From: Eggerthella lenta DSM 2243 | Lineage (GTDB): Bacteria; Actinomycetota; Coriobacteriia; Coriobacteriales; Eggerthellaceae | Direction of reading: 5' to 3' | DNA length: 64,000 bases | Assembly: GCF_000024265.1 (NCBI RefSeq) | Contig: NC_013204.1 | Location: 2,608,501 to 2,672,500 of the forward strand | Shown: piece after piece, positions 26,477-39,181 of the stretch | How the letters are laid out: each line of letters starts with the position of its first letter | Position numbering within the stretch: the first letter of the stretch is position 1 | Notes under the pieces: model-generated | The model's database searches: none | What the model saw: only the letters and a program-made list of their open reading frames with translations | Told to the model about the DNA's origin: nothing | Translations under genes and position numbers: made by a program

Positions 26477-27590
26477 ATGTCCTATGTTACCTCAATCGGC
26501 CTCGACGTACACGCACGTTCGATAACAGCTGTCGCATTCGATCCTGCAACAGGAGAAGTGCGTTCGAAGAGATTCGGCTATGCTCCGGCCGAAGTCGCTG
26601 CATGGACGCTAGCCTTCGATTCCCCTAAAGCGGTTTACGAATCCGGCGTGACCGGATTCCACCTTGTCCGCGCCTTGCGAGGTCTTGGGGTCGACTGCAT
26701 CGTCGGCGCCGTGTCCAAGATGCACAAGCCTGCAGCCGACAAGCGCAAGAAGAACGATCGCAACGATGCCGAGTTCTTGGCGCGTCAGCTTGCCGCCCGC
26801 AACATCAAAGAGGTCTGGATACCCGATGAGGAGTGCGAGGCGGCACGCGACCTCTCCCGCGTCTTGGAAGACGTCCGCGAAGACCTCACGCGCGCGAAGC
26901 ATCGCCTAACCCACTTGCTCATACGGCATGGCTACGCCTTCGACGAGATCGGGCCGGACGGCAAGCGCAAGGGCAAGTGGACGAGGGCGCATTGGGAGTG
27001 GATACGAAGCATCGAGCTTTCCGAAGCGGCGGCGCGCGACGCCCTTGACTTCTACGTTTCCGAAGTGCGCCATATCGAGGCCCAGAAGAAGGCCATCGAA
27101 AAAGAAATCGCCGACTACGCCCGTGCCGATCGTTGGCGTGGGCGGGTGGAAGCCCTTCGCCGTCTCAAAGGCATAGAGACCATGACGGCGTTTTCCCTTG
27201 TGGCGGAAGCGGGGGTGTTCTCTCGCTTCGAGAGCGCCCGCGCATTCTCGTCCTGGCTCGGGCTCACTCCTTCCGAGCATTCCAGCGGAGAGAGGGTGAG
27301 CCGCGGCGGCATTATCAAAGCCGGCAACACCCATCTTCGAAAGCAGCTCGTAGAGTCGTCGTGGCACTACACGAGGGCTACGACCAAGCGCAAGAGGGAT
27401 CAGCGGGGAGAAGAGGTGCCCCTTGCAATCGAAAACCATGCCGCCCGGGGGCGTGAAGCGCCTTGCAGAGAGGCGGGCTCACTTTGCAAGGCGCAATCTT
27501 CGCCCGGCGGCGGCCAACGCGGCCACCGCAAGAGAGCTCTCCTGCTGGGTATGGGTTGTGGGCTGCATGTCGGAAGGGGCTCTCGTATAG
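26477..27590 (+). pseudogene. IS110-family transposase, frameshifted near the C-terminus
   Basis: The N-terminal RuvC-like DEDD domain (SIGLDVHARSITAVAFDP at residues 6-23, then KNDRNDAEFLARQLA) and the C-terminal Transposase_20 domain (LKGIETMTAFSLVAEAG, then FSSWLGLTPSEHSSG) are intact. After ENHAARG the reading frame shifts at a run of five G (27447-27451): the current frame gives a nonsense tail to 27601. The next frame continues naturally (VKRLAERRAHFARRNLRPA and onward) to a TAG at 27590. One extra G explains it. The catalytic Ser-containing domain survives, so partial activity is not excluded. Replication slippage or a base-calling error are alternatives. Confidence 0.85.
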
Positions 27591-27808
27591 AAACTCGTTA
27601 ACGTTCGATCTTTTATCCAGCAAGCCCTTCATGTCGACTGGTCGTTGGATGCGATCCCAGCTGCTTTTTTTGGACGCCGGTTTATCCGGTACGCCCGCAC
27701 GGAGACTCTTCTTTGAAGGTGCGCGCATCCAGCCGTAGCAACGAAATGCGAAGCCAGCGCAGCGAACATACCGGGCAATGACGCACTGTTGCCGACCTCG
27801 GCATCCTG

Positions 27809-29142
27809 GGGTTATAGGCAAGAAAGTGTGTCCGTTTTAGGGGTGTAAGGGCAGGTCAAACCCTCGATAAACCATCGTTTAAATTTCGGAGGCAGGTTTA
27901 AGTGCCTGGCAAGAATGTGTGTCCGCTTTCGACTTGACACCGCAGGTCAGAGGCCGTAAACCGCCCTCTTAAATTCCGTGGTTCAATCACGGGATGAAGA
28001 AGATACTGTGCCCTGCGTGCGGGGGCGACACGAAACGCAACGGGAAGACCTCGTCGGGGGCGACTCGTTGGCGCTGCAAGGCATGCGGCGCATCCACCAC
28101 GCAACGTTACGACAACGAGCCTAAACTGCTAGAGCTGTTCCTGAGGTGGCTGCTCTCGAAAAAGACCCAAGGCGAGTTCGGCATGCCCGGACGCACCTTC
28201 CGGCATCTCACGAATAAGTTCTGGGACCTGTGGCCCGTGGCTCCTGTCTGTGACGAGGTCCACCACGTGGTGGAGGTGGATGGCCTTTGGCTGGGGCGCG
28301 ACGTCGTGATTATGATCGCCTGCACCGAGAAGCACGTGATCGGCTGGCATCTAGCGAGAAGCGAGAACGCGCAGGCGTGGGCGGCGCTCATGGCGCGCAT
28401 AGCCCCTCCCGACGTCGTGATTACCGATGGCGGAAAGGGGTTCGAGAAGGCGAGACGCGCCGTGTGGCCGAACACACGCGTGCAGCGCTGCGTCTTCCAT
28501 GCGTTCTGTCAGGTGAAGCGCCAGACCACGACCAGGCCGCGGCTCCAGGCGGGCGTTGAGCTCTATGGCATCGCCAAGAAGCTCATGCGCATAGGTAGCC
28601 TCAACGAAGCTGCGGAGTGGCTTGCGGGCTTCTCTAATTGGTGCACGGCATGGGAAGGATTCCTAAAGGAAAAAGAGGTGGTTGACGGGCGGATCCGCTA
28701 CAAGCACGAGAGGCTGCGCACTGCGCGCGGCGGGCTTCTGAAGCTTTGTAGGGCCGGTACCCTATTCACCTATCTCGACGAAGGCTTGCTCGAGGGAGGA
28801 CCTGTTCCGGCGACTACGAACAGGATCGAAGGCGGCGTGAACGCCCAGATCCGCCACATGCTGCGAGAGCATCGGGGATTGAGGCTGACGAGGCGCGTCA
28901 AGGCGGCGTTCTGGTGGTGCTATATGGACCTTGAAGCCCGTGCAAGCCCGAAAGAGATCCTGAAGGAAATGCCGACGGACGTCCTGATTGCTGAGTTTTA
29001 TCGAGCAGCTGCCGAAGCTAGCGAAAAAGATGAAGCGGTGGGGCGCTGGGGCACTGCTGTGCAATGGAATGACCTGCATGCAAGCGGCCCTTATCGCATG
29101 GATTACGATTAGGCTCTGGACACACTTTCTTGCCTATAACCC
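27809..29142 (+). mobile_element. IS1249-type (IS256 superfamily) insertion sequence
   Basis: Perfect 25-bp terminal inverted repeats (27809-27833 and 29118-29142, beginning GGGTTATAGGCAAGAAAG) enclose one transposase gene. The element is flanked by an 8-bp direct repeat GCATCCTG (27801-27808 and 29143-29150), the target duplication. A degenerate internal copy of the terminal repeat lies at ~27904-27926. Intact ends and duplication indicate a recent insertion. Confidence 0.92.
27994..29112 (+). CDS. IS1249-family transposase
   Basis: This 372-residue protein starts with a zinc ribbon (CPACGGDTKRNGKTSS, then RWRCKACGAS), followed by a mutator-type DDE core: VEVDGLWLGRDVVIMIACT, then VVITDGGKGFEKARRAVWP, and TTNRIEGGVNAQIRHMLREH with the catalytic Glu. 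The zinc ribbon distinguishes IS1249-like elements from ordinary IS256 ones. The gene fills the element between its terminal repeats. The start ATG at 27994 has a weak ribosome binding site, usual for transposases. It appears complete. Confidence 0.9.
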   Translation: MKKILCPACGGDTKRNGKTSSGATRWRCKACGASTTQRYDNEPKLLELFLRWLLSKKTQGEFGMPGRTFRHLTNKFWDLWPVAPVCDEVHHVVEVDGLWLGRDVVIMIACTEKHVIGWHLARSENAQAWAALMARIAPPDVVITDGGKGFEKARRAVWPNTRVQRCVFHAFCQVKRQTTTRPRLQAGVELYGIAKKLMRIGSLNEAAEWLAGFSNWCTAWEGFLKEKEVVDGRIRYKHERLRTARGGLLKLCRAGTLFTYLDEGLLEGGPVPATTNRIEGGVNAQIRHMLREHRGLRLTRRVKAAFWWCYMDLEARASPKEILKEMPTDVLIAEFYRAAAEASEKDEAVGRWGTAVQWNDLHASGPYRMDYD

Positions 29143-29250
29143 GCATCCTGCCAGCCTGACGCTGTGAACCCGCGAATATTAAACTGCGAATACGAGCGTC
29201 GATTAAGACACAACCATGAGAAGAGCGAGTTGGATGGAGATATATGAACA

Positions 29251-29282
29251 GGGCAAGACCGAGAGAAATCTTGGTCTTGCCC
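29251..29282. terminator. hairpin downstream of the insertion sequence
   Basis: A 10-bp stem, GGGCAAGACC paired with GGTCTTGCCC, with a ~12-nt loop followed by TCTATT. It could end plus-strand transcription leaving the insertion elements. Confidence 0.6.
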
Positions 29283-29320
29283 TCTATTGCCTCTTGACAA
29301 TGTTCTGCTCATATTAAAAA

Positions 29321-29342
29321 GGTCAGCCGCGAAGGGCTGACC
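29321..29342 (-). terminator. terminator of tRNA-Pro
   Basis: A stem GGTCAGCC/GGCTGACC with a short loop, followed on the minus strand by five T residues. Confidence 0.9.
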
Positions 29343-29351
29343 TGCAATTTC

Positions 29352-29428
29352 TGGTCGGGTTGACAGGATTTGAACCTGCGGCCTCTGCGTCCCGAACGCA
29401 GCGCTCTACCAAGCTGAGCCACAACCCG
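29352..29428 (-). tRNA. tRNA-Pro (anticodon CGG)
   Basis: A 77-nt cloverleaf on the minus strand: acceptor CGGGUUG with CAACCCG, anticodon stem CUGCG/CGCAG with loop UUCGGGA, T arm with GGUUCAAAUCC, and encoded CCA. tRNA genes are frequent integration sites, and this one borders the island carrying the insertion sequences. Confidence 0.96.
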
Positions 29429-29432
29429 ATGT

Positions 29433-29525
29433 ACTGCTTCAAGCAGCGACGGATATGATAGCACAATGTAACCGAAGGTAAAAGAAATTGCGACAATATT
29501 TCTTTTTCCACGCCTTCTTCACCGG
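29433..29525. repeat. copy 2 of the ~95-bp repeat, containing the tRNA-Pro promoter
   Basis: Minus strand TTTACC (29477-29482), 16-bp spacer, TATCAT (29455-29460). The whole stretch resembles 24791-24883. The following ~370 nt (29526-29896) have no recognisable gene; only short unsupported reading frames occur. Confidence 0.65.
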
Positions 29526-29896
29526 TGCTGTAGGTTGATTTTCGGATGCTTTGGGAATCGACGGATATCCCGTAGACAAGCGAGACATGACCATTTAACG
29601 GCATCGGGGAATCATAATGCCTGATGATCTGACTATTTCGTAGAAACAGTCAGCAACGATAAACCCCGCCTAAAAAAAACTGAGCCATTTCACCGACCTG
29701 TACACTCGCCAACAAACGAACATCGATTTGACCTAGACTTATAAAGTTTTCTGTGGCACATCTGAACCCGCGGCCTTTATGTATTCCCCATCTTCCCAGG
29801 TAATTGGACGCGATTTCGATGCGTTAATACGCTTCTGACAGGATTGCCCGCTGAGTGGTCCTCCGGAAATGAGCTTCCAGCGCGACAACGGCGGCC

Positions 29897-31387
29897 GCGT
29901 CCCGAATCGTGGTGTATCAGGGCCATCGCCGGAGAATCGCCGGCACCCTTGCGAGGTGAATCTTAGCCTTCGTCCTCCTTCGGGTCAATGGCGCTCCCTA
30001 TGATCTTGCGCGCCGCCTCGCGGGCGGCGAGCACCTCGGCCTCGCCGGGGGCCTCGCGCTCCTGGGCCTTCCAGGCGTGCGCGAGCGAGGGCCTGGAGAT
30101 GACGCAGCGCGCCGACCACTCCTCGTCGGCCTCGATGAGCGCCGCTCCCACCAGGCGGATGAGCGACTCGCGCGAGGGGAACCCCTGCACGACGCGCGTC
30201 CTGCGCTTGATCTCGCGGTTGGCCCTCTCCTGGACGTTGTTGGTGCGGATCTTGGTGCGGTGCGTGGCCGGGAACGCCAGGTAGGCGAGCGCCGCCTCCT
30301 CGGCCTCCAAGAGCACGTTTCCGGCCGCCCTCGAGATCTTCAGCACCTCCTCGGTCGCCTCTTGGTAGCACGCCCGCACGAGGACGGGGCTCTTCTGCGC
30401 GAAGACGGCCTTCATGGCCTCGCGCGCCTTTCTCTGGTCGTCCTTCCTGTGGATGCGGCCCGCCACGTTGCGCATGAGGTGCGTGACGCAGCGCTGCCAG
30501 GCCGCTCCTTGGAACGTCTCGGCTATCGCCTTCGCGAGCCCTTCGTGGGCGTCCGAGACGACGAGGCGCACGCCGTCGACGCCGCGCGCCCTCAGGCCGG
30601 AGAGGAACGCCTTCCACCCGGCGTGGCTCTCCGTGTCCACGCAGTCCACGCCGACGAAGCGCTTGTGGCCCGTGTCGTCGAGCCCGATCGCGGTCACGAC
30701 GGCCTGGGACGCCGAGCGCCCCTCCACGCGGCACTTCACGTAGGTGGCGTCGAGCCACAGGTAGGCGAAGCGCACCCCGTCGAAGCGCTGCCTCCTGAAC
30801 GCGTCCACCTCGGCGTCCAGGCACTCGCACAGGCGCGACACCTGCGACTTCGACATCGACCTCACGCCGAGCTCGCCCGCGACGGCCTCCACCTTGCGCG
30901 TCGATATCCCCATGACGTACATCTCGGCCACCGCCGCGACGAGCGCCCGGTCCACCCTGCAGTAGCGCTCGATCAGGTCCTCGGGGAAGAACGAGCCTCG
31001 GCGCAGCTTCGGAATCTTGAGGGTGACGTCGCCCGCGGCGGTCGAGAGCCCCCGCTCCCGGTAGCCGTTGCGCGAGTTGACGCGCCCCTCGTCGCGCTCC
31101 CCGTAGGGGGCGTTGCACGCCTCGTCGGCCTTCGCCGACATCGCGGCGTTCGCCAGGAGCTCGAGCATCCTGCGCCCGAAGGCCTGCAGGTCGGTGCATT
31201 CCTCGAGGATCGCGAACGCGAGCCCCTTCACTTCGGGGTCGTTGAATAGTAGAGTGTCCATAGCGGGCATCGCCTTCCTTCGAATCTGTCTTTTGTGGTG
31301 ATTGACGATTCTAGACGATGTCCGTTTTTCTCGGGCAGGCTTCGCCCGCCCTCCAGAAACGGATTGATACACCAACTTTCGGGACGC
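29897..31387 (-). mobile_element. IS256-family insertion sequence
   Basis: Imperfect terminal inverted repeats at 29897-29919 and 31365-31387 (20 of 23 identical: GCGTCCCGAA, three differing bases, TGGTGTATCA) flank one transposase gene. No matching target duplication was found, so the insertion is old or the flanks have been rearranged, and the exact ends are provisional. Confidence 0.75.
29963..31270 (-). CDS. IS256-family (mutator type) transposase
   Basis: A 435-residue protein with the family signature in order: LREFGRRMLE-like N-terminus, YLWLDATYVKCRVEGR (first catalytic Asp), RLVVSDAHEGLAKAI (second Asp), and TNNVQERANREIKRRTRVVQ with the catalytic Glu. It appears full length and intact. 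The start at 31270 follows GAAGGAAGG; an internal ATG 9 nt later is possible. It is the only gene in the element. Confidence 0.93.
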   Translation of the reverse strand: MPAMDTLLFNDPEVKGLAFAILEECTDLQAFGRRMLELLANAAMSAKADEACNAPYGERDEGRVNSRNGYRERGLSTAAGDVTLKIPKLRRGSFFPEDLIERYCRVDRALVAAVAEMYVMGISTRKVEAVAGELGVRSMSKSQVSRLCECLDAEVDAFRRQRFDGVRFAYLWLDATYVKCRVEGRSASQAVVTAIGLDDTGHKRFVGVDCVDTESHAGWKAFLSGLRARGVDGVRLVVSDAHEGLAKAIAETFQGAAWQRCVTHLMRNVAGRIHRKDDQRKAREAMKAVFAQKSPVLVRACYQEATEEVLKISRAAGNVLLEAEEAALAYLAFPATHRTKIRTNNVQERANREIKRRTRVVQGFPSRESLIRLVGAALIEADEEWSARCVISRPSLAHAWKAQEREAPGEAEVLAAREAARKIIGSAIDPKEDEG

Positions 31388-31527
31388 TACCAGCAGATCC
31401 AACGCCCACAACGCTATCATGGCGAGCAGTGCTGACGAGGATCCAGCGAGCCCATGCCGCATCGACTCGGCAGCAATCGGCCAATTTGCCGCTACTCCAA
31501 AACCCCACTGGACTCTTCGAGGAGAAC

Positions 31528-32281: not shown

Positions 32282-32731
32282 TTAGCTGTTATCCGACACC
32301 GACCTGCACAGGTTGTCAAGGCGCGATGCGCTTCGCTTGCATTCGTTGACGCTTGAAATAGTGACCATGCGCTTGCCAGTCGGATATGCCGCGACGAGCT
32401 GCCCTGAATCCAGAAGCTGATCAACACGGCCTGGGGACACGCCTAGCTCTTCCGCCGCCTCCGCGAGCGTCATGCACAAGCTCTCGCGAATGAAACCGTC
32501 GCCCACCTCCACGCACAGCACCAACTGCGGGGCCTCGCCGAAGGTCGCCTCCGGCAGCGGCTCGTCGTTGTCAAGCATGTCCGCGATGAGGAGCTGCAAA
32601 CAACCGGCGGCGTTCTCGCACGCCTCCTTGACGCTCGTCCCGCCTGCGACCATGCACTCGAAGGAGGGGACGGCCACGGTGTAGCCGCCCTCGCTCTCGC
32701 GAATTATAGATCCTTCGTAAGTGTAGAACAT
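32282..32731 (-). CDS. HicB-like antitoxin with C-terminal helix-turn-helix
   Basis: A 149-residue protein. Residues 1-80 have the HicB fold pattern: MFYTYEGSIIRESEGGYTVA, VPSFECMVAGGTSVKEACEN and AAGCLQLLIADMLDNDEPLP. Residues ~90-135 form an excisionase-type winged helix (MTLAEAAEELGVSPGRVDQL, then LVAAYPTGKRMVTISSV). HicB antitoxins bind HicA mRNA interferases and repress their operon. No HicA-like gene is adjacent on either side, so the antitoxin is orphan or serves another partner. AAGGAGG lies 5 nt before the ATG. Confidence 0.8.
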   Translation of the reverse strand: MFYTYEGSIIRESEGGYTVAVPSFECMVAGGTSVKEACENAAGCLQLLIADMLDNDEPLPEATFGEAPQLVLCVEVGDGFIRESLCMTLAEAAEELGVSPGRVDQLLDSGQLVAAYPTGKRMVTISSVNECKRSASRLDNLCRSVSDNS

Positions 32732-32945: not shown

Positions 32946-32985
32946 GTTTGTCTAATTACCAGTCAGTTTATCACTGCTCCAAAGC
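32946..32985 (+). other. possible tracrRNA anti-repeat (or degenerate CRISPR repeat)
   Basis: This 40-nt stretch is a near reverse complement of the 36-nt repeat at 34233-34268, with a 4-nt insertion and a few substitutions. Three of four substitutions keep pairing through G-U wobbles if this plus strand is read as RNA against the minus-strand repeat. That is expected for a tracrRNA anti-repeat and not for random decay. No promoter or tail structure was confirmed. Confidence 0.4.
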
Positions 32986-33036
32986 CTTGATGTCGCAATA
33001 CTCGACCACAGCCGTTTGCTCTTGCGATTCGCTCAT
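32971..33036 (-). CDS. 21-codon remnant with a strong start signal
   Basis: MSESQEQTAVVEYCDIKALE is preceded by AAGGAGGCGAG, an excellent ribosome binding site, yet it stops after 21 codons inside the repeat-like segment at 32946-32985. It is most likely the truncated beginning of a gene whose remainder was lost, and less likely a true micropeptide. Confidence 0.35.
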   Translation of the reverse strand: MSESQEQTAVVEYCDIKALEQ

Positions 33037-33122
33037 GTTCTCGCCTCCTTGCACGTTCGATTGTGCAGGGAGCGTCACATATGATGGGCGGCGCAGAACG
33101 CCGATTAAAAAAGGAGGCGACG

Positions 33123-33362
33123 TTGAACGAAACGATCGGATGCCCGCGCTGTACCTATTGCGCGGCCTACCTGCCAGCTGGGTCCACAAGCGCGGAAAGT
33201 CTTTATTGCACGTACCTGAGAATGCATGTCGAAAAAGACGATGGATGCAGGTTCGGAGCCGCGGGAACCCCGATGCGTGGCTCGAACGCCCCGCAGGTAG
33301 ACACCGGAATCGATGCGACGGCAAGGGGATACTATAGCTGGTGTGCGGAGCTGATGCGATGA
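33123..33362 (+). CDS. 79-residue cysteine-rich protein with TTG start
   Basis: Translation from TTG at 33123 is proposed because AAAAAAGGAGG ends 5 nt before it. The protein begins LNETIGCPRCTYCAAYLPAG and has seven cysteines, including a CPRCTYC cluster and later CTYLRMHVEKDDGC, which could bind a metal ion. I do not recognise a family. Translation signals are strong, and the protein is encoded in an otherwise gene-poor part of the island. Confidence 0.5.
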   Translation: MNETIGCPRCTYCAAYLPAGSTSAESLYCTYLRMHVEKDDGCRFGAAGTPMRGSNAPQVDTGIDATARGYYSWCAELMR

Positions 33363-33525
33363 CGACCTTCGGAATGGACGAGCTACTTCTGTCGGCGACC
33401 ATCGCCAGGAACGGCATCGCGGGTTAGATCAGGAAAACGCCCACCATGAGGGGGGGGGGCGGATGATCGGATACTCGAGGCAATAGAAGAGCCTCTACAC
33501 AGCGAGGCCCCTCCAAATCATAGAA

Positions 33526-34008
33526 CTACCAGCGGGAGCATTCTCCGTACTTGGACGATATCAGCAGCGCGAGAAGCTCGACGAACGTCATGGCGCACAG
33601 GACGAGCAGTATCAAGAATGCGAAGAACTCGTAGCCGTTGATCGGGATGAGCACGCCGAAGAACAGCATCCAGAGCCACGCGAAGAACAGCAGGACATGG
33701 GCAACGCCCAACCACTTCTTCCCGGCGTAGAAGTCGTGCCCTCCCCACACTCCGAGGAACAACCACAGCAGCAGCGCGAACAGCTTGCGCTTCCCCGCAG
33801 GCTCGACCGTGGCGGTCGCGGTCATGCCGACTCCGTACAAGCCGTTCGGGAACGGCACGCCCGCCACCTGGTACGCGTATTGGCACGCTCCCACCCACTG
33901 AGGGTTCTGCGCCCTATCGAACAACCCGTACGTCCCATCGGCGTTTAGCCCGACGTACTGATCCGACGTCATAGCCGCTTGAGCGTCGTTGATGTTGGCG
34001 TACTGCAT
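33526..34008 (-). CDS. TM2-domain membrane protein
   Basis: A 160-residue protein. The C-terminal half is a TM2 domain: KRKLFALLLWLFLGVWGGHD, FYAGKKWLGVAHVLLFFAWL, and a third hydrophobic stretch FFAFLILLVLCAMTFVELLA. The charged F-x-G-x-H-x-F-Y-x-G turn between helices is the family hallmark. The N-terminal half (residues 1-75) is soluble, with YVGLNADGTYGLFDRAQNPQ. TM2 proteins lack a known biochemical role in bacteria. GAGGGGGAG precedes the ATG at 34008. A run of ten G lies downstream at ~33450. Confidence 0.8.
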   Translation of the reverse strand: MQYANINDAQAAMTSDQYVGLNADGTYGLFDRAQNPQWVGACQYAYQVAGVPFPNGLYGVGMTATATVEPAGKRKLFALLLWLFLGVWGGHDFYAGKKWLGVAHVLLFFAWLWMLFFGVLIPINGYEFFAFLILLVLCAMTFVELLALLISSKYGECSRW

Positions 34009-34045
34009 GGCTCCCCCTCGACAATCATGATGTTGGCAATGAATA

Positions 34046-34231
34046 TTACAACAGCAGGTCACCAGTCACAACCGCCTTGGCCTCCTTGACCGCCCGCTCG
34101 TAGACGCCCTCCCGCCAACGGTCGCGGTGCAGCACTTCGCCGTGCTCGGCCACTAGATCGCGAAGCCGCGCCTGCTTCGACCGGACGGCCTTCCGCGCTT
34201 CCAAGTCGTCGATCCCCGCCGCCCGCAACAC
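34046..34231 (-). pseudogene. C-terminal gene remnant, possibly phage minor capsid protein
   Basis: The reading LRAAGIDDLEARKAVRSKQA, then RLRDLVAEHGEVLHRDRWRE resembles the C-terminal helical end of phage head-assembly (minor capsid) proteins. It starts directly beside the 36-nt repeat without a ribosome binding site. This looks like a 3' remnant joined by deletion. The identification is tentative. Confidence 0.35.
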
Positions 34232-34232
34232 C

Positions 34233-34268
34233 GTTTGACTACCAGCCAGTTTGTCACTGCTCCAAAAC
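34233..34268 (-). CRISPR. single type II-like CRISPR repeat remnant
   Basis: This 36-nt unit on the minus strand starts GTTTTGGAGCAGTGACAAAC and ends GGTAGTCAAAC. Length 36, GTTTTNGAGC start and CAAAC end are typical of type II repeats. It lies directly downstream of a truncated cas9 start. Only one unit is present, so it is a relic, not a working array. Confidence 0.5.
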
Positions 34269-34508
34269 CATGAACGCGAAAACGAGGCCGTGTCCCGATT
34301 CGATGGTCGGGGCGTGCCTCGTCTTCATCCCGTACTGTACCATACCCGACCGATGCGTGGTGTTCGCCGTCGGGAAGACACGGCTCCCCCACGTGGGTTC
34401 GCCTTTGAAGCGGCAAAGATTTCCTTCGCCGTCCAGCACCGCCCATCCCACCGACCCGGTTCCGATATCAAGACCGATTTGGTACGACTCGACATTGCGC
34501 AAATTCAT
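34254..34508 (-). pseudogene. cas9: cas9 remnant, first ~50 codons
   Basis: The ATG at 34508, with AAGGGGA upstream, opens NLRNVESYQIGLDIGTGSVG, then WAVLDGEGNLCRFKGEPTWG and SRVFPTAN. This is the RuvC-I start of Cas9 (catalytic Asp in GLDIGTGSVGWAV, followed by KG-x-P-x-W-G-x-R-x-F). After about residue 50 the homology ends, and translation runs ~30 unrelated codons to a stop inside the CRISPR-like repeat. The arginine-rich bridge helix and everything after it are missing, so the gene cannot make an active nuclease. Confidence 0.75.
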
Positions 34509-34566
34509 AGGTTCCCCTTACCTGCCTTTCGGGGCGCCGCGGAGGCGGCAACTTTGACTCTATATG

Positions 34567-34593
34567 CGAAGGACCCCTGATAGGGGTCCTTCG
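34567..34593 (-). terminator. terminator of the fdhB-fdhA operon
   Basis: A perfect 12-bp stem (34567-34578 with 34582-34593) with a 3-nt loop, 31 nt after the fdhA stop. Confidence 0.8.
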
Positions 34594-34623
34594 TTGTTCC
34601 AGGATGAATCTTCGATCGCTTTC

Positions 34624-37335
34624 TTACGCCTTTTCCACTTTCACGGCGCACACCTTGTACTCGGGGGCCTTCGACACGCGGTCGAGGGCGGCGATGGTGA
34701 GCCAGTTGCTGTTGCCGTCTTGGAAATGGAACGGCATCCACGTATGTCCCGGCGACGTCTTCTCGGACACATGCGCGACGGACTCGATGGAGCCGCGACG
34801 CGATGAGACGCGCACGATGTCCCCGTCGGCGATGCCGAGAGCCTCGGCATCGCACGTGTTCAGCTCGATGAACGAGCGGTTCGCTATCTCGTTCACGCCG
34901 TCGGTGCGAGCGGTCATGGCACAGGCGTTGTACTGGTACAGGATGCGACCCGTCATCATGACCAGCGGATACTCCGCATCGGGCAGCTCGGCGGACGGCT
35001 GGTAGTCGGGTGTGGAGAACGCGCCCAGCCCCTGGGCGAACTCGCCCATGTGCAGGATGGGCGTGCCGGGATGCTCGGCGCTTGGGCACGGCCACTGCAA
35101 GCCGCGGCCGGCCGTCTCGTCGCCGTCGAGGCGCGCATGGCTCATGCCGCCGTACGTGGGCGTGACCGAGACGATCTCGTCCATGACCTCGGCCGCGCTC
35201 AGACGAGGCTGCGCATAGCCCATGCGGTTCATGACCTCGGTGAAGATGTCGGTGTCGAGCCACGCGCCCACAGGCCCGTCCACGGCCTTGCGCACGCGCT
35301 GGACGCGCCGCTCGGTGTTCGTGAACGTGCCCTCCTTCTCGGCGTAGCTGCGCCCGGGCAGGATGACGTCGGCGTACTTGGCCGTTTCGGTCATGAACAG
35401 GTCGTCCACCACGAAGAACTCGAGCGCCTCGAGCGAGCGGATCACGTGATGCGTATCGGGGTCGGTGCGCACGGGATCCTCGCCGAACAGGAACAGCCCC
35501 TTGATGCCGCCCTCGATCATGGCCGGGAAGCACTCGGTGGCCTTGATGCCGCGCGCACGCGGAAGCGCGGCGCCCCACGCCTTCTCGAAGCGGCGCACCA
35601 CCTCGGGATCAGCCACCTTCTGGTAGCCGGGCAGGTCGTCGGGACCGGCGCCCATGTCGCAGGCGCCCTGCACGTTGTTCTGGCCGCGCAGCGGGTTCAC
35701 GCCGCCGCCCGGCTTGCCCAGGTTGCCGGAGATCATCGCGATGTTCGACAGCGCCATGACGCCGTCGGTTCCCGTGGAGTGCTCCGTCACGCCGAGGCAG
35801 TACATGATGGCCGCCGCGTCGGCTGCCGCGTACATCTTCGCCGCGGCCACGAGGTCGCGACGGTCGATGCCGCAGATGTCCTCCACCAGCTCGGGCGTGT
35901 AGTCGCGCACCGTCGCGGCCAATATCTCGAAGCCCTCGGTGCGCTCGCGCACGAAGTCCTCGTCGTACAGCTCGTGCTGAATCAGGTAGTTCACAATGCC
36001 GTTCGCGAACGCGACGTTCGTTCCCGGCCTCAGCTTCAAATGAATGTCGGCATGCGCGGCCAGCCCGATGTCGCGCGGGTCGACCGCGATGAGCCGGCAG
36101 CCGCGTTCGACCGCCGCGCGGATCTGCATGCCTATGACGGGGTGGGCCTCCTCGGGGTTCGACCCCACGAGCATGATGACCTCCGCCTTGCGCGTGACGT
36201 CTTCGATGGAGTTCGTCATCGCGCCGGAACCAAGCATGGTCGCCAGACCGGCGACCGTGGGGGCGTGTCAAACACGCGCGCAACAGTCCACGTTGTTCGT
36301 TTGGAGCACGATGCGCGCCATCTTCTGGAACAGGTAGATGTCCTCGTTCGTGGAGCGCGAGCACGCGAACGCCGCCAGCGACTCGCCGCCGTGGACATCG
36401 CGGAGCTCCGTGAAGCGCCTCGCCACGAGGTCGAGCGCTTCGTCCCAGGTGGCGGGCTCGAACTCTCCCGTCTCGCGGTTCTTCACGAGCGGCGTTCGTA
36501 TGCGGTCGGGCGCGTCGACGAAATCGAAGCTTGCCGAGCGCCCCTTCACGCACAGAAGCCCGTGGTTCGACGGGCCCGGCGCGGCCTCGGCGTCCACGAC
36601 GACGCCGTCCTTCACCACCAAATCCAGCTGGCAGCCCACGCCGCAGTGCGGGCACGTGGTGCGCACGCGCTCGGTCTCCCACGAGCGGTACGTCGCGCGG
36701 CGCTTCTCGGTGAGCGCTCCGGTGGGGCACGCCTGCGCGCAGTTGCCGCACGACTCGCAGTCGGTGGCGCGCCAGTCCGCGCCGAACGGCGCCTCGATCA
36801 GCGTGCGAACGCCGCGCTTCGCGGTTCCCAGCGTGTGGTTGCGCGCGGCGTCGTTGCAGGCGCCCACGCAACGCTGGCAGCGTATGCACAGGTTCGGGTC
36901 GTAAGCGAGGAACGGGTTCTCGTCGCGCACGGGCTCGCGCTTCTGCGCTGCCTCGAAAGGAGACTCCAGCACGCCGTACTCACGGCAGACGGCCTGCAGC
37001 TCGCAGGCGCCGTTCTTATCGCACGAGAAGCAGTAGTTCGTGGAATCGAGGCCGTGATCGGCGATGATGAGCTCGAGCGCGATGCGGCGGTACGCCTCGA
37101 TGCGCGGCGAGGAGGTGGTCACCTTCATACCGTCTTGCACGGGCGTGGCGCACGAGGGCACCGGCTGGTCGAGCCCTTCCACGTCCACGACGCACACGCG
37201 GCACGAGGCGATGGCGCTGCGCTCTTTCAGGAAGCACAGCGTGGGGATGCGGATGCCGGCAGCGCGCGCGGCATCGAGGATGGTGGAGCCTTCGGCAACG
37301 TCGAGGGCGATCCCGTCTATCGTGATGCTAGGCAT
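34624..37335 (-). CDS. fdhA: selenocysteine formate dehydrogenase, catalytic subunit
   Basis: A single 903-residue protein is obtained by reading the in-frame UGA at 36268-36270 as selenocysteine (residue 356), in the context NNVDCCARV-U-HAPTVAGLA, the same setting as Sec140 of E. coli FdhF. In order: a [2Fe-2S] domain (Cys 34, 45, 48, 62), a His/Cys-rich segment, two [4Fe-4S] clusters (CIRCQRCVGAC, CESCGNCAQACP), one more (CPHCGVGC), then the bis-MGD molybdopterin domains and C-terminal MopB. It oxidises formate or reduces CO2 in the cytosol. The next gene is 8 nt overlapping. The ATG at 37335 begins the ferredoxin domain directly. Confidence 0.95.
36238..36256 (-). promoter_or_regulatory. 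SECIS hairpin for selenocysteine insertion
   Basis: Starting 11 nt after the UGA, the minus strand reads GGTCGCC-GGTCT-GGCGACC: a 7-bp stem with apical GGUCU. The apical GGUCU is the SelB-binding feature of the E. coli fdhF SECIS. Confidence 0.88.
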
Positions 37336-39181
37336 ACTGGTGCCTGCCTCCTTCCATAACGCCGCAGCCGAAACGATCGCAGCGCAGGCAGCGCCCGCAC
37401 TCCTGCACGACCTCTTCGCGGCTCATTCCGTTCTCGACGCCATCGAAATCGAGCCGCCGCTCGCGCGCGGGACGCTCGGTTATCTCCACGCGCCCCTTGG
37501 GCGTGCGGTCGTTCGGCAGCGGTTCGGGCACCTCGATGTCACACGGCAGCTTGTGATGGTAACCCAGGAACTCGTCGATGTTGCGCGCAGCCACCTTTCC
37601 CGCCCCGATGGCGCGGATCACCGTAGAGGGGCCGGTCTGGCAGTCGCCGCCCACGAACACATGGTCGTACCCTTCGGCCGCAAGATGATCGTCGGCATTG
37701 AAGCAACCCCAGGTGGTGCTCATGCCGAACTCCTCGAACGGGCCCGACACCACATCCTGCCCCACGGCGATGAGGATGATGTCGGCTTCTATGCGGCGCG
37801 TCGGCTTGTCGGCCGCCATCGGCGCCGGACGGCCGCCGCGCACGGGACCGATCATCTGCGGCTGCGTGATGAGCGCCGTGCAATGTCCGCGCTCGTCCAC
37901 CTCGATGCTGGCGGGCGCCTCCAGCACGATCATCTCCACGCCCTCGGCGATGGCGCTCTCCACCTCAGCCGGCAGCGCCGTCATGTCGTCCTTGCGGCGC
38001 CGGTACACCACCGAGACCTCGTCGGCCCCGGCGCGCACCGACGTGCGCGCGCAGTCCATGGCGACGTTGCCGCCGCCCACCACCACCACGCGCTTGCCCG
38101 TGAAGTCGGGATAGTCGCCATCGCCGATGGCCCCCAGCAAATCCACTGCCGAGACGACGCCTTCGGCATCCACGCCGTCGATGCGCAGCGACTTGCCCGT
38201 CTGCGCGCCGACGGCCACGTACACCGCATGGTACGTGTCGGCGATCTCGGCCATCTCGTGCGCGCCGATGCGCTCGCCGCACCGCGCCGTGATGGTGCCC
38301 GCGTTCAGGATGCCGCGGATATCCTCGTCCAAGCGCTCGCGCGGAAAGCGATACGCGGGGATGCCGTAGCGCAGCATGCCGCCCAGCTGGGCGCGTTCCT
38401 CGAACACCGTCACGCGATGCCCCATAAGGGCGAGGAAGTACGCGCAGGTGAGCCCGCTGGGCCCGCCGCCGATGACGGCGACGGTGCGCGCGGTGTCCAC
38501 GCTGCGCGGCGGGGGCGCCACCTGGTCGGCTGGCATCTGGTCGACCGCGAACTTCTTGATCCCGCGGATGTTGATGGGCGCATCGATAAGCGTGCGGCGG
38601 CACCGCGTCTCGCAAGGATGCTCGCACACGAACGCGCAAGCCGTGGGAAACGGGTTATCCTTGCGCACCATGTTGACGGCACCGGCGTAGTCGCCCGCCG
38701 CCGTGAGCGCGATGTAGGCGGGCACGTCCACGTGCGCGGGGCACAGCGTCTCGCAAGGAACCGTTTGGCCGACGCCCTCCTGGCACGAACGGTCGCGCAA
38801 ATGGCTCGCATACTCGTCGGCGAACGTATCGAGACCCTCCAGCACGCTGCGGGCGGCCTCGTAGCCGATGGCGCAATCCGACGCGTCGCGGATCATCTCG
38901 GCCAGCGCGCGCAGGCCCTCCAGTACGCCCTCGTCAGCCTCGCAGTCCACCACGCGCTTGAGCATCGCCGCCAGCTGCGGGATGCCGTCGCGACACGGAA
39001 CGCACTTTCCGCAGGTCTGCGCACCGCTTGTCTGCAGCATGGTCAGCTGCACGGCCAACGGGCACATGCCCGGCGGCGTCGCCTCGACACGACGCGCGAA
39101 GGTGTCCAGGTGCGCGGCAATCCGCGCATCGTCGCGCGACCGCGGCGCAATCGATAGCTTGGCCACTGGCTCTCCATCCAT
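37328..39181 (-). CDS. FdhA partner: NuoF C-terminal domain fused to NfnB/GltD-like flavoprotein
   Basis: This protein has about 617 residues. The N-terminal part carries the NuoF 4Fe-4S motif SGAQTCGKCVPCRDGIPQ near residue 60. The rest is a glutamate-synthase-small-subunit type oxidoreductase: Fe-S region LCPAHVDVPAYIALTAAGDY with CEHPCETRCRR, FAD site AVIGGGPSGLTCAYF, NAD(P) site VVVVGGGNVAMDCART, and C-terminal CGRCLRCDRFGC. It should pass electrons between FdhA and NAD(P) or ferredoxin. The FMN/NADH-binding part of NuoF is missing. Start uncertain: a TTG at 39211 would add 10 residues. Confidence 0.85.
   Translation of the reverse strand: MDGEPVAKLSIAPRSRDDARIAAHLDTFARRVEATPPGMCPLAVQLTMLQTSGAQTCGKCVPCRDGIPQLAAMLKRVVDCEADEGVLEGLRALAEMIRDASDCAIGYEAARSVLEGLDTFADEYASHLRDRSCQEGVGQTVPCETLCPAHVDVPAYIALTAAGDYAGAVNMVRKDNPFPTACAFVCEHPCETRCRRTLIDAPINIRGIKKFAVDQMPADQVAPPPRSVDTARTVAVIGGGPSGLTCAYFLALMGHRVTVFEERAQLGGMLRYGIPAYRFPRERLDEDIRGILNAGTITARCGERIGAHEMAEIADTYHAVYVAVGAQTGKSLRIDGVDAEGVVSAVDLLGAIGDGDYPDFTGKRVVVVGGGNVAMDCARTSVRAGADEVSVVYRRRKDDMTALPAEVESAIAEGVEMIVLEAPASIEVDERGHCTALITQPQMIGPVRGGRPAPMAADKPTRRIEADIILIAVGQDVVSGPFEEFGMSTTWGCFNADDHLAAEGYDHVFVGGDCQTGPSTVIRAIGAGKVAARNIDEFLGYHHKLPCDIEVPEPLPNDRTPKGRVEITERPARERRLDFDGVENGMSREEVVQECGRCLRCDRFGCGVMEGGRHQYA

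Follow-up and report, generated by a model that had tools for sequence, protein, structure and literature searches.

Remains of a type II-A CRISPR-Cas locus beside the fdh operon

The stretch of DNA analysed here (the window, 64,000 nucleotides) spans positions 2,608,501-2,672,500 of the closed 3,632,260-base genome of Eggerthella lenta DSM 2243. Next to its fdh operon lie the start of a cas9 gene, the tail of a putative tracrRNA gene and two CRISPR repeats, with phage DNA between the repeats. From the operon downward, the features are:

34624..39160, minus strand: fdh operon, the marker of shared chromosomal position, from DNA identity to relatives with an intact type II-A locus
34515..34602, plus strand: 3' tail of the putative tracrRNA gene, with GC-rich hairpins and terminator but without nexus and anti-repeat, from an alignment of cas9 upstream regions
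34360..34508, minus strand: 5' remnant of a type II-A cas9, about 50 codons, comprising RuvC-I and ending before the bridge helix, from TIGR01865 and amino-acid identity
34269..34360, minus strand: 92-nt stretch separating the cas9 remnant from R1; not cas9, not leader, not repeat; no matches
34233..34268, minus strand: CRISPR repeat R1, 35/36 to GTTTTGGAGCAGTGACAAACTGACTGGTAGTCAAAC
34203..34232, minus strand: S1, putative former spacer of 30 nt, GGTGTTGCGGGCGGCGGGGATCGACGACTT, abutting R1; a site in the phage minor head gene, then GGAA
33526..34232, minus strand: phage block A, the final 61 codons of a minor head gene (Phage_min_cap2) and a full open reading frame for a TM2-domain protein, 87% DNA identity
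32986..33508, minus strand: phage block B, two small plus-strand genes and, on the minus strand, the beginning (~17 codons) of a VRR-NUC gene, 77-85% DNA identity
32986..33015, minus strand: S2, putative former spacer of 30 nt, ending TGCGACATCAAG, abutting R2; a phage site, then GGAA
32950..32985, minus strand: degenerate CRISPR repeat R2, 31/36 to the array repeat of relatives

The minus strand from 34508 to 34360 translates to MNLRNVESYQIGLDIGTGSVGWAVLDGEGNLCRFKGEPTWGSRVFPTA. The NCBIfam model of Cas9, TIGR01865, matches residues 9-50 of this remnant (E=9.4e-12), and tblastn aligns it over about 50 residues, at 82-90% amino-acid identity, with the nearest full-length Cas9s in the bacterial family to which E. 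lenta belongs. Together, these matches rule out another RuvC-fold gene as the source. At the DNA level, homology to cas9 stops at about 34359, ahead of the arginine-rich bridge helix.

Cas9 scores above the curated cut-off in 38 of 138 genomes of the family. In the 10 relatives examined, cas9, cas1, cas2, a csn2-like gene and the array follow one another in this order, all on one strand, and the first repeat lies about 6,050 nt past the cas9 start. The assignment to type II-A is illustrated by the locus of one relative, G061 (Csn2, TIGR01866, 3e-39; Cas1, TIGR03639, 1.7e-86; Cas2, TIGR01573); the Csn2 model also finds a match in G085 and G062. A type II-A locus has been reported in Eggerthella sp. 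YY7918 as well (PMC5727150). The array repeat of the closest relatives is GTTTTGGAGCAGTGACAAACTGACTGGTAGTCAAAC or a one-base variant of it, and in G020, G061 and G088 the fdh operon stands directly upstream of cas9, with 78-83% DNA identity over 4.6 kb. G066 has an intact type II-A locus with this repeat, and its fdh operon match is in pieces.

The remnant thus has in common with the type II-A loci of G020, G061, G066 and G088 the cas9 start, the repeat, the tracrRNA tail and the position beside fdh. Unlike these loci, it has no cas genes past cas9 codon ~50, no leader and no anti-repeat, and only two repeats are left. An earlier note on this DNA had described the wreck of a type II CRISPR-Cas locus, to be checked by finding an intact locus with this repeat at the same position in a relative. 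The Cas9 start, the two repeats and the intact locus of relatives bear that description out, and G020, G061 and G088 (with the proviso given above for G066) provide the locus in question. The remnant is absent from the three other Eggerthella species searched (G052-G054), in which the fdh operon is present.

Losses from the cas operon and the tracrRNA gene

When the 6-kb cas operon of G020 is searched against the E. lenta genome, only cas9 nucleotides 1-150 are returned at this locus, plus chance matches. One of the latter, at C1:1736797 to cas9 nucleotides 155-217, was considered as a displaced piece of cas9 and rejected as a GC-rich chance match. Therefore cas9 from codon ~50 onward, cas1, cas2, csn2, the leader and the start of the array are gone from the genome. 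The earlier note had proposed a deletion between cas9 and the array that left the strain without this system. Both statements hold: the gap runs from cas9 codon ~50 into the array, and the operon is absent past cas9 nucleotide 150.

The second loss concerns the tracrRNA gene. A multiple alignment of cas9 upstream regions places the tracrRNA of relatives just upstream of cas9 and divergent from it. Here, positions 34516-34598 match L030 at 79% DNA identity; compared with G061, about 80 nt carrying the nexus and the anti-repeat are missing between the tracrRNA tail and the cas9 start. Exact comparison with G061 puts the joint of this deletion at a shared AAGG microhomology. Rfam returns no tracrRNA family match, and the proposed identity as tracrRNA rests on the anti-repeat, the hairpins, the terminator and the pattern of conservation.

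A functional type II-A system requires complete cas9, cas1, cas2 and csn2 genes, which the whole genome lacks, and a tracrRNA with its anti-repeat, of which only the tail is retained. Judged by this gene content, the locus is dead, because it has no effector, no adaptation genes and no anti-repeat, and no present-day function of the remnant is expected. Apart from this locus, a functional type I-C system is present in E. lenta (PMC9734109).

The DNA immediately outside the two repeats does not resemble an array. The 92 nt before R1 have no match in the leaders or arrays of relatives, in the E. lenta genome, in phages or in viral contigs, and a leader or spacer origin was dropped for want of a match in any of these sets. 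One frame of this stretch shows coding-like high GC3. For the DNA after R2, a phage origin was likewise dropped, as the search gave no match beyond a sole hit of 9 residues.

Two repeats enclosing phage late genes

R1 and R2 are the sole copies of the 36-nt unit in the 3.63-Mb genome at up to 2 mismatches; the control search with the reversed pattern gave 0 hits. The type II repeat features that the earlier note saw in this unit are confirmed by the 35/36 agreement of R1 with arrays beside the cas9 of relatives. R2 is degenerate, as the terminal repeats of relatives are, and differs from R1 at 6 of 36 positions. R2 had been put forward as a possible anti-repeat, which it is not: it is a direct, full-length copy of the repeat. 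Anti-repeats in relatives reach no more than 25/36 and sit upstream of cas9, and the DNA neighbouring R2 is a phage gene with no tracrRNA tail. Because the proper place of the anti-repeat was upstream of cas9, and because a phage gene adjoins R2, this assignment was abandoned.

Between R1 and R2 lie 1,247 nt of phage late-gene DNA, 77-87% identical to gut viral contigs. Block A matches IMGVR 3300018471_000110 at 87% DNA identity over 709 nt and is annotated as minor head (PHROG 581; PF06152 in the full phage gene) and TM2 (PF05154). Block B matches IMGVR 3300018471_000033 at 77-85% DNA identity, and the phage gene corresponding to its VRR-NUC part contains PF08774. Relative to this contig, block B contains a nonsense codon and seems to have undergone a deletion, and its two small plus-strand genes are partly decayed. 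Thus the small genes that the earlier note saw in place of cas9, cas1 and cas2 do exist, but their identity to viral contigs makes them phage late genes.

Phage homology starts within 1 base of the end of R1 and stops within 1 base of the start of R2. The two blocks are matched on separate contigs; the 1,247 nt nevertheless look like one colinear phage segment, since three other phages have the order portal, minor head, VRR-NUC, scaffold at similar spacing. Relatives of the portal gene include loci in Eggerthella sinensis and in an Eggerthellaceae metagenome-assembled genome, so the host range fits. The segment has no second copy in the E. lenta genome, and other genomes of the family give only short matches to it.

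A remnant as such is ordinary; what is out of the ordinary is the exact fit of a phage segment between two repeats. CRISPR loci are often lost and the events are rarely readable, and the remains here record at least three lesions.

Putative former spacers and a shared GGAA flank

The exact borders at both repeats call either for a process that senses repeat ends or for sequence beside the repeats that was already phage-derived, that is, spacers. If spacers are the answer, the 30 nt beside each repeat are predicted to match phage sites with one PAM. On the R1 side, the site is followed 3' by GGAAGCGC, identical in the window and the phage contig; on the R2 side, the phage site is followed by GGAATCCC, a flank read from a relative of the phage and not from the phage itself. 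GGAA is common to both phage sites, a comparison of two sites only, one of them from a related phage. Within these contigs, only 0.34% of positions begin a GGAA, and the first four bases coincide in 0.6% of random flank pairs.

GGAA stands exactly 30 nt from R1, and 30 nt is the commonest spacer length in relatives (257 of 365 spacers); in the arrays of ten relatives, spacers measure 28-31 nt (n=365, counted with a 24-45 nt filter). On this sequence evidence, S1 and S2 behave like former spacers.

PAMs suggested by the spacers of relatives differ from GGAA. In G061, two spacers point to CAAGGG: they match phage-like DNA at L186 1501 and L173 6590 (26/30 and 24/30), both flanked 3' by this motif, which is likely the PAM of the G061 Cas9. 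In G088, two perfect spacer matches point to CCATC and GCACC. These two neighbouring spacers match Eggerthella phage LE2-3 (L190, MW679026.1), a phage of E. lenta DSM 2243, at 30/30 and 29/29, with the 3' flanks CCATCTC and GCACCCG. As the PAMs of relatives differ in this way, they lend the PAM-like GGAA no support.

Origin of the phage segment

The analysis favours, as probable though well short of certain, homologous recombination of two spacers with the phage sites they targeted, preserved in a dead type II-A remnant beside fdh. An ancestral type II-A locus (tracrRNA-cas9-cas1-cas2-csn2-array) would have sat beside the fdh operon, and its array would once have held S1, beside R1, and S2, beside R2, both acquired from one phage. 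In a later infection, a relative of this phage may have recombined at the two 30-nt matches, swapping the repeat or repeats between S1 and S2 for phage DNA. Decay of the locus, with its deletions, could have come before or after this exchange.

This explanation is favoured because GGAA is found at both sites and because the 30 nt equal the modal spacer length; phage DNA joined exactly at the repeat borders is also what a product of spacer-protospacer recombination is expected to look like. Two points count against it: two homologies of 30 nt are short for homologous recombination, and the DNA outside R1 (the 92 nt) and outside R2 is not array-like either.

The main rival, itself unlikely, is a giant spacer: Cas1-Cas2-Csn2-Cas9 adaptation would have taken up a 1.2-kb phage fragment, about 40 times the normal length, and the array would have kept it. 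Both junctions fall exactly at the repeat borders, which are the sites where Cas1-Cas2 cuts, and a CAAGG at the R2 junction resembles the PAM suggested for G061, although it there competes with the two-sided GGAA. Against such an uptake stands the narrow length range of the 365 spacers of ten relatives given above (28-31 nt, 24-45 nt filter). A giant spacer would also turn a GGAA located 30 nt inside the fragment and matching the flank at the other end into a 0.3-1% coincidence, and the 6/36 differences between R1 and R2 exceed those of a fresh duplication, unless later decay mostly hit R2. That a break in the array was end-joined with a stray phage fragment caught as filler, its match to the borders being accidental, is quite unlikely. 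Ku is present in the genome, and the tracrRNA deletion shows that microhomology joining has occurred at this locus, yet neither border is more than a base or two away from a repeat end; if borders are allowed to fall anywhere over 400 nt, a toy calculation puts the chance of both landing within 2 nt at about 1e-4.

Two further explanations were weighed. A prophage that integrated at the repeat as an attachment site by means of its integrase, and was later deleted down to 1.2 kb, would account for an insertion between repeats and for its phage-derived content. We regard this as very unlikely: the ends fall inside two late genes, structural and nuclease, where neither an integrase nor an attachment region lies, the late region of related phages is colinear with the segment, and R1 and R2 are no clean duplication. 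Recombination between the array and a solitary CRISPR repeat carried by a phage has a precedent in the viral solitary repeat units, and their possible recombination with host arrays, that the review PMC8616872 describes. Such units, as presented there, are single repeats flanked by phage DNA, as is seen here; the repeats at this locus, by contrast, belong to the host's lost array and are chromosomal. The repeat core occurs in 0 of 2.9 million viral contigs, and in related phages both junction sites lack a repeat, which makes this origin extremely unlikely.

Recombination between spacers and phage targets has a reported counterpart in staphylococci (Varble et al. 2019, as relayed in PMC8616872), where, according to that review, phage DNA became joined to the CRISPR array at spacer positions, as is proposed here. 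Set against the case as the review gives it, the present one is natural and two-sided, a fossil within the dead locus of a gut actinobacterium; its spacers are putative, and mobilisation is not part of the claim. Inactivation of CRISPR-Cas by insertion sequences, as outlined in PMC10359306, is a likeness of another kind, in that a system is lost through insertion of foreign DNA. In contrast to that account, the remnant itself contains no insertion sequence, the IS elements being at least 1.5 kb away.

If spacer-phage recombination took place, S1 and S2 are predicted to occur as 30-nt spacers in some strain of E. lenta or in a close relative, together with a Cas9 that recognises GGAA. If strain comparison confirms this, the locus would be a natural, non-staphylococcal case in which a phage recombined into the very array directed against it; if true, it would also represent a possible route to loss of Cas9 immunity in a bacterium.

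Further observations in the neighbourhood and the family

Upstream of the remnant, a SECIS-like element at 36215-36273 (RF01989, below the gathering score) lies at an in-frame TGA (36270-36268, minus strand) of the formate dehydrogenase gene, and fdhA is probably a selenoprotein split by the calling of open reading frames. Downstream of R2, positions 32282-32731 encode a HicB-like domain fused to an excisionase/wHTH domain, for which DNA matches in the family are weak or short. Three adjoining transposase genes (IS110 family; MULE/Mutator-like; IS256/Mutator family) occupy 26477-31462, next to the remnant.

In G020, a degenerate repeat follows the array, and within 3 nt of it the 3' end of fdhA occurs a second time, over 505 nt at 98% identity (L031 15773-16310); the whole cas locus there is therefore flanked by a direct duplication of host-gene sequence. 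In the same genus, the Cas9 of G052 is shorter and of a different kind and has an internal TGA (L033, C1:3009374-3012187); this genome also has a small array of another repeat.

Among 5,563 genomes surveyed in 2017, the combination of Ku and type II-A turned up once, in Eggerthella sp. YY7918 (PMC5727150). Here, Ku (NHEJ) co-occurs with a full-length Cas9 followed by a type II-A Csn2-like gene in G020, G061, G062, G064, G066 and G085, and the combination appears to be regular in Eggerthellaceae.
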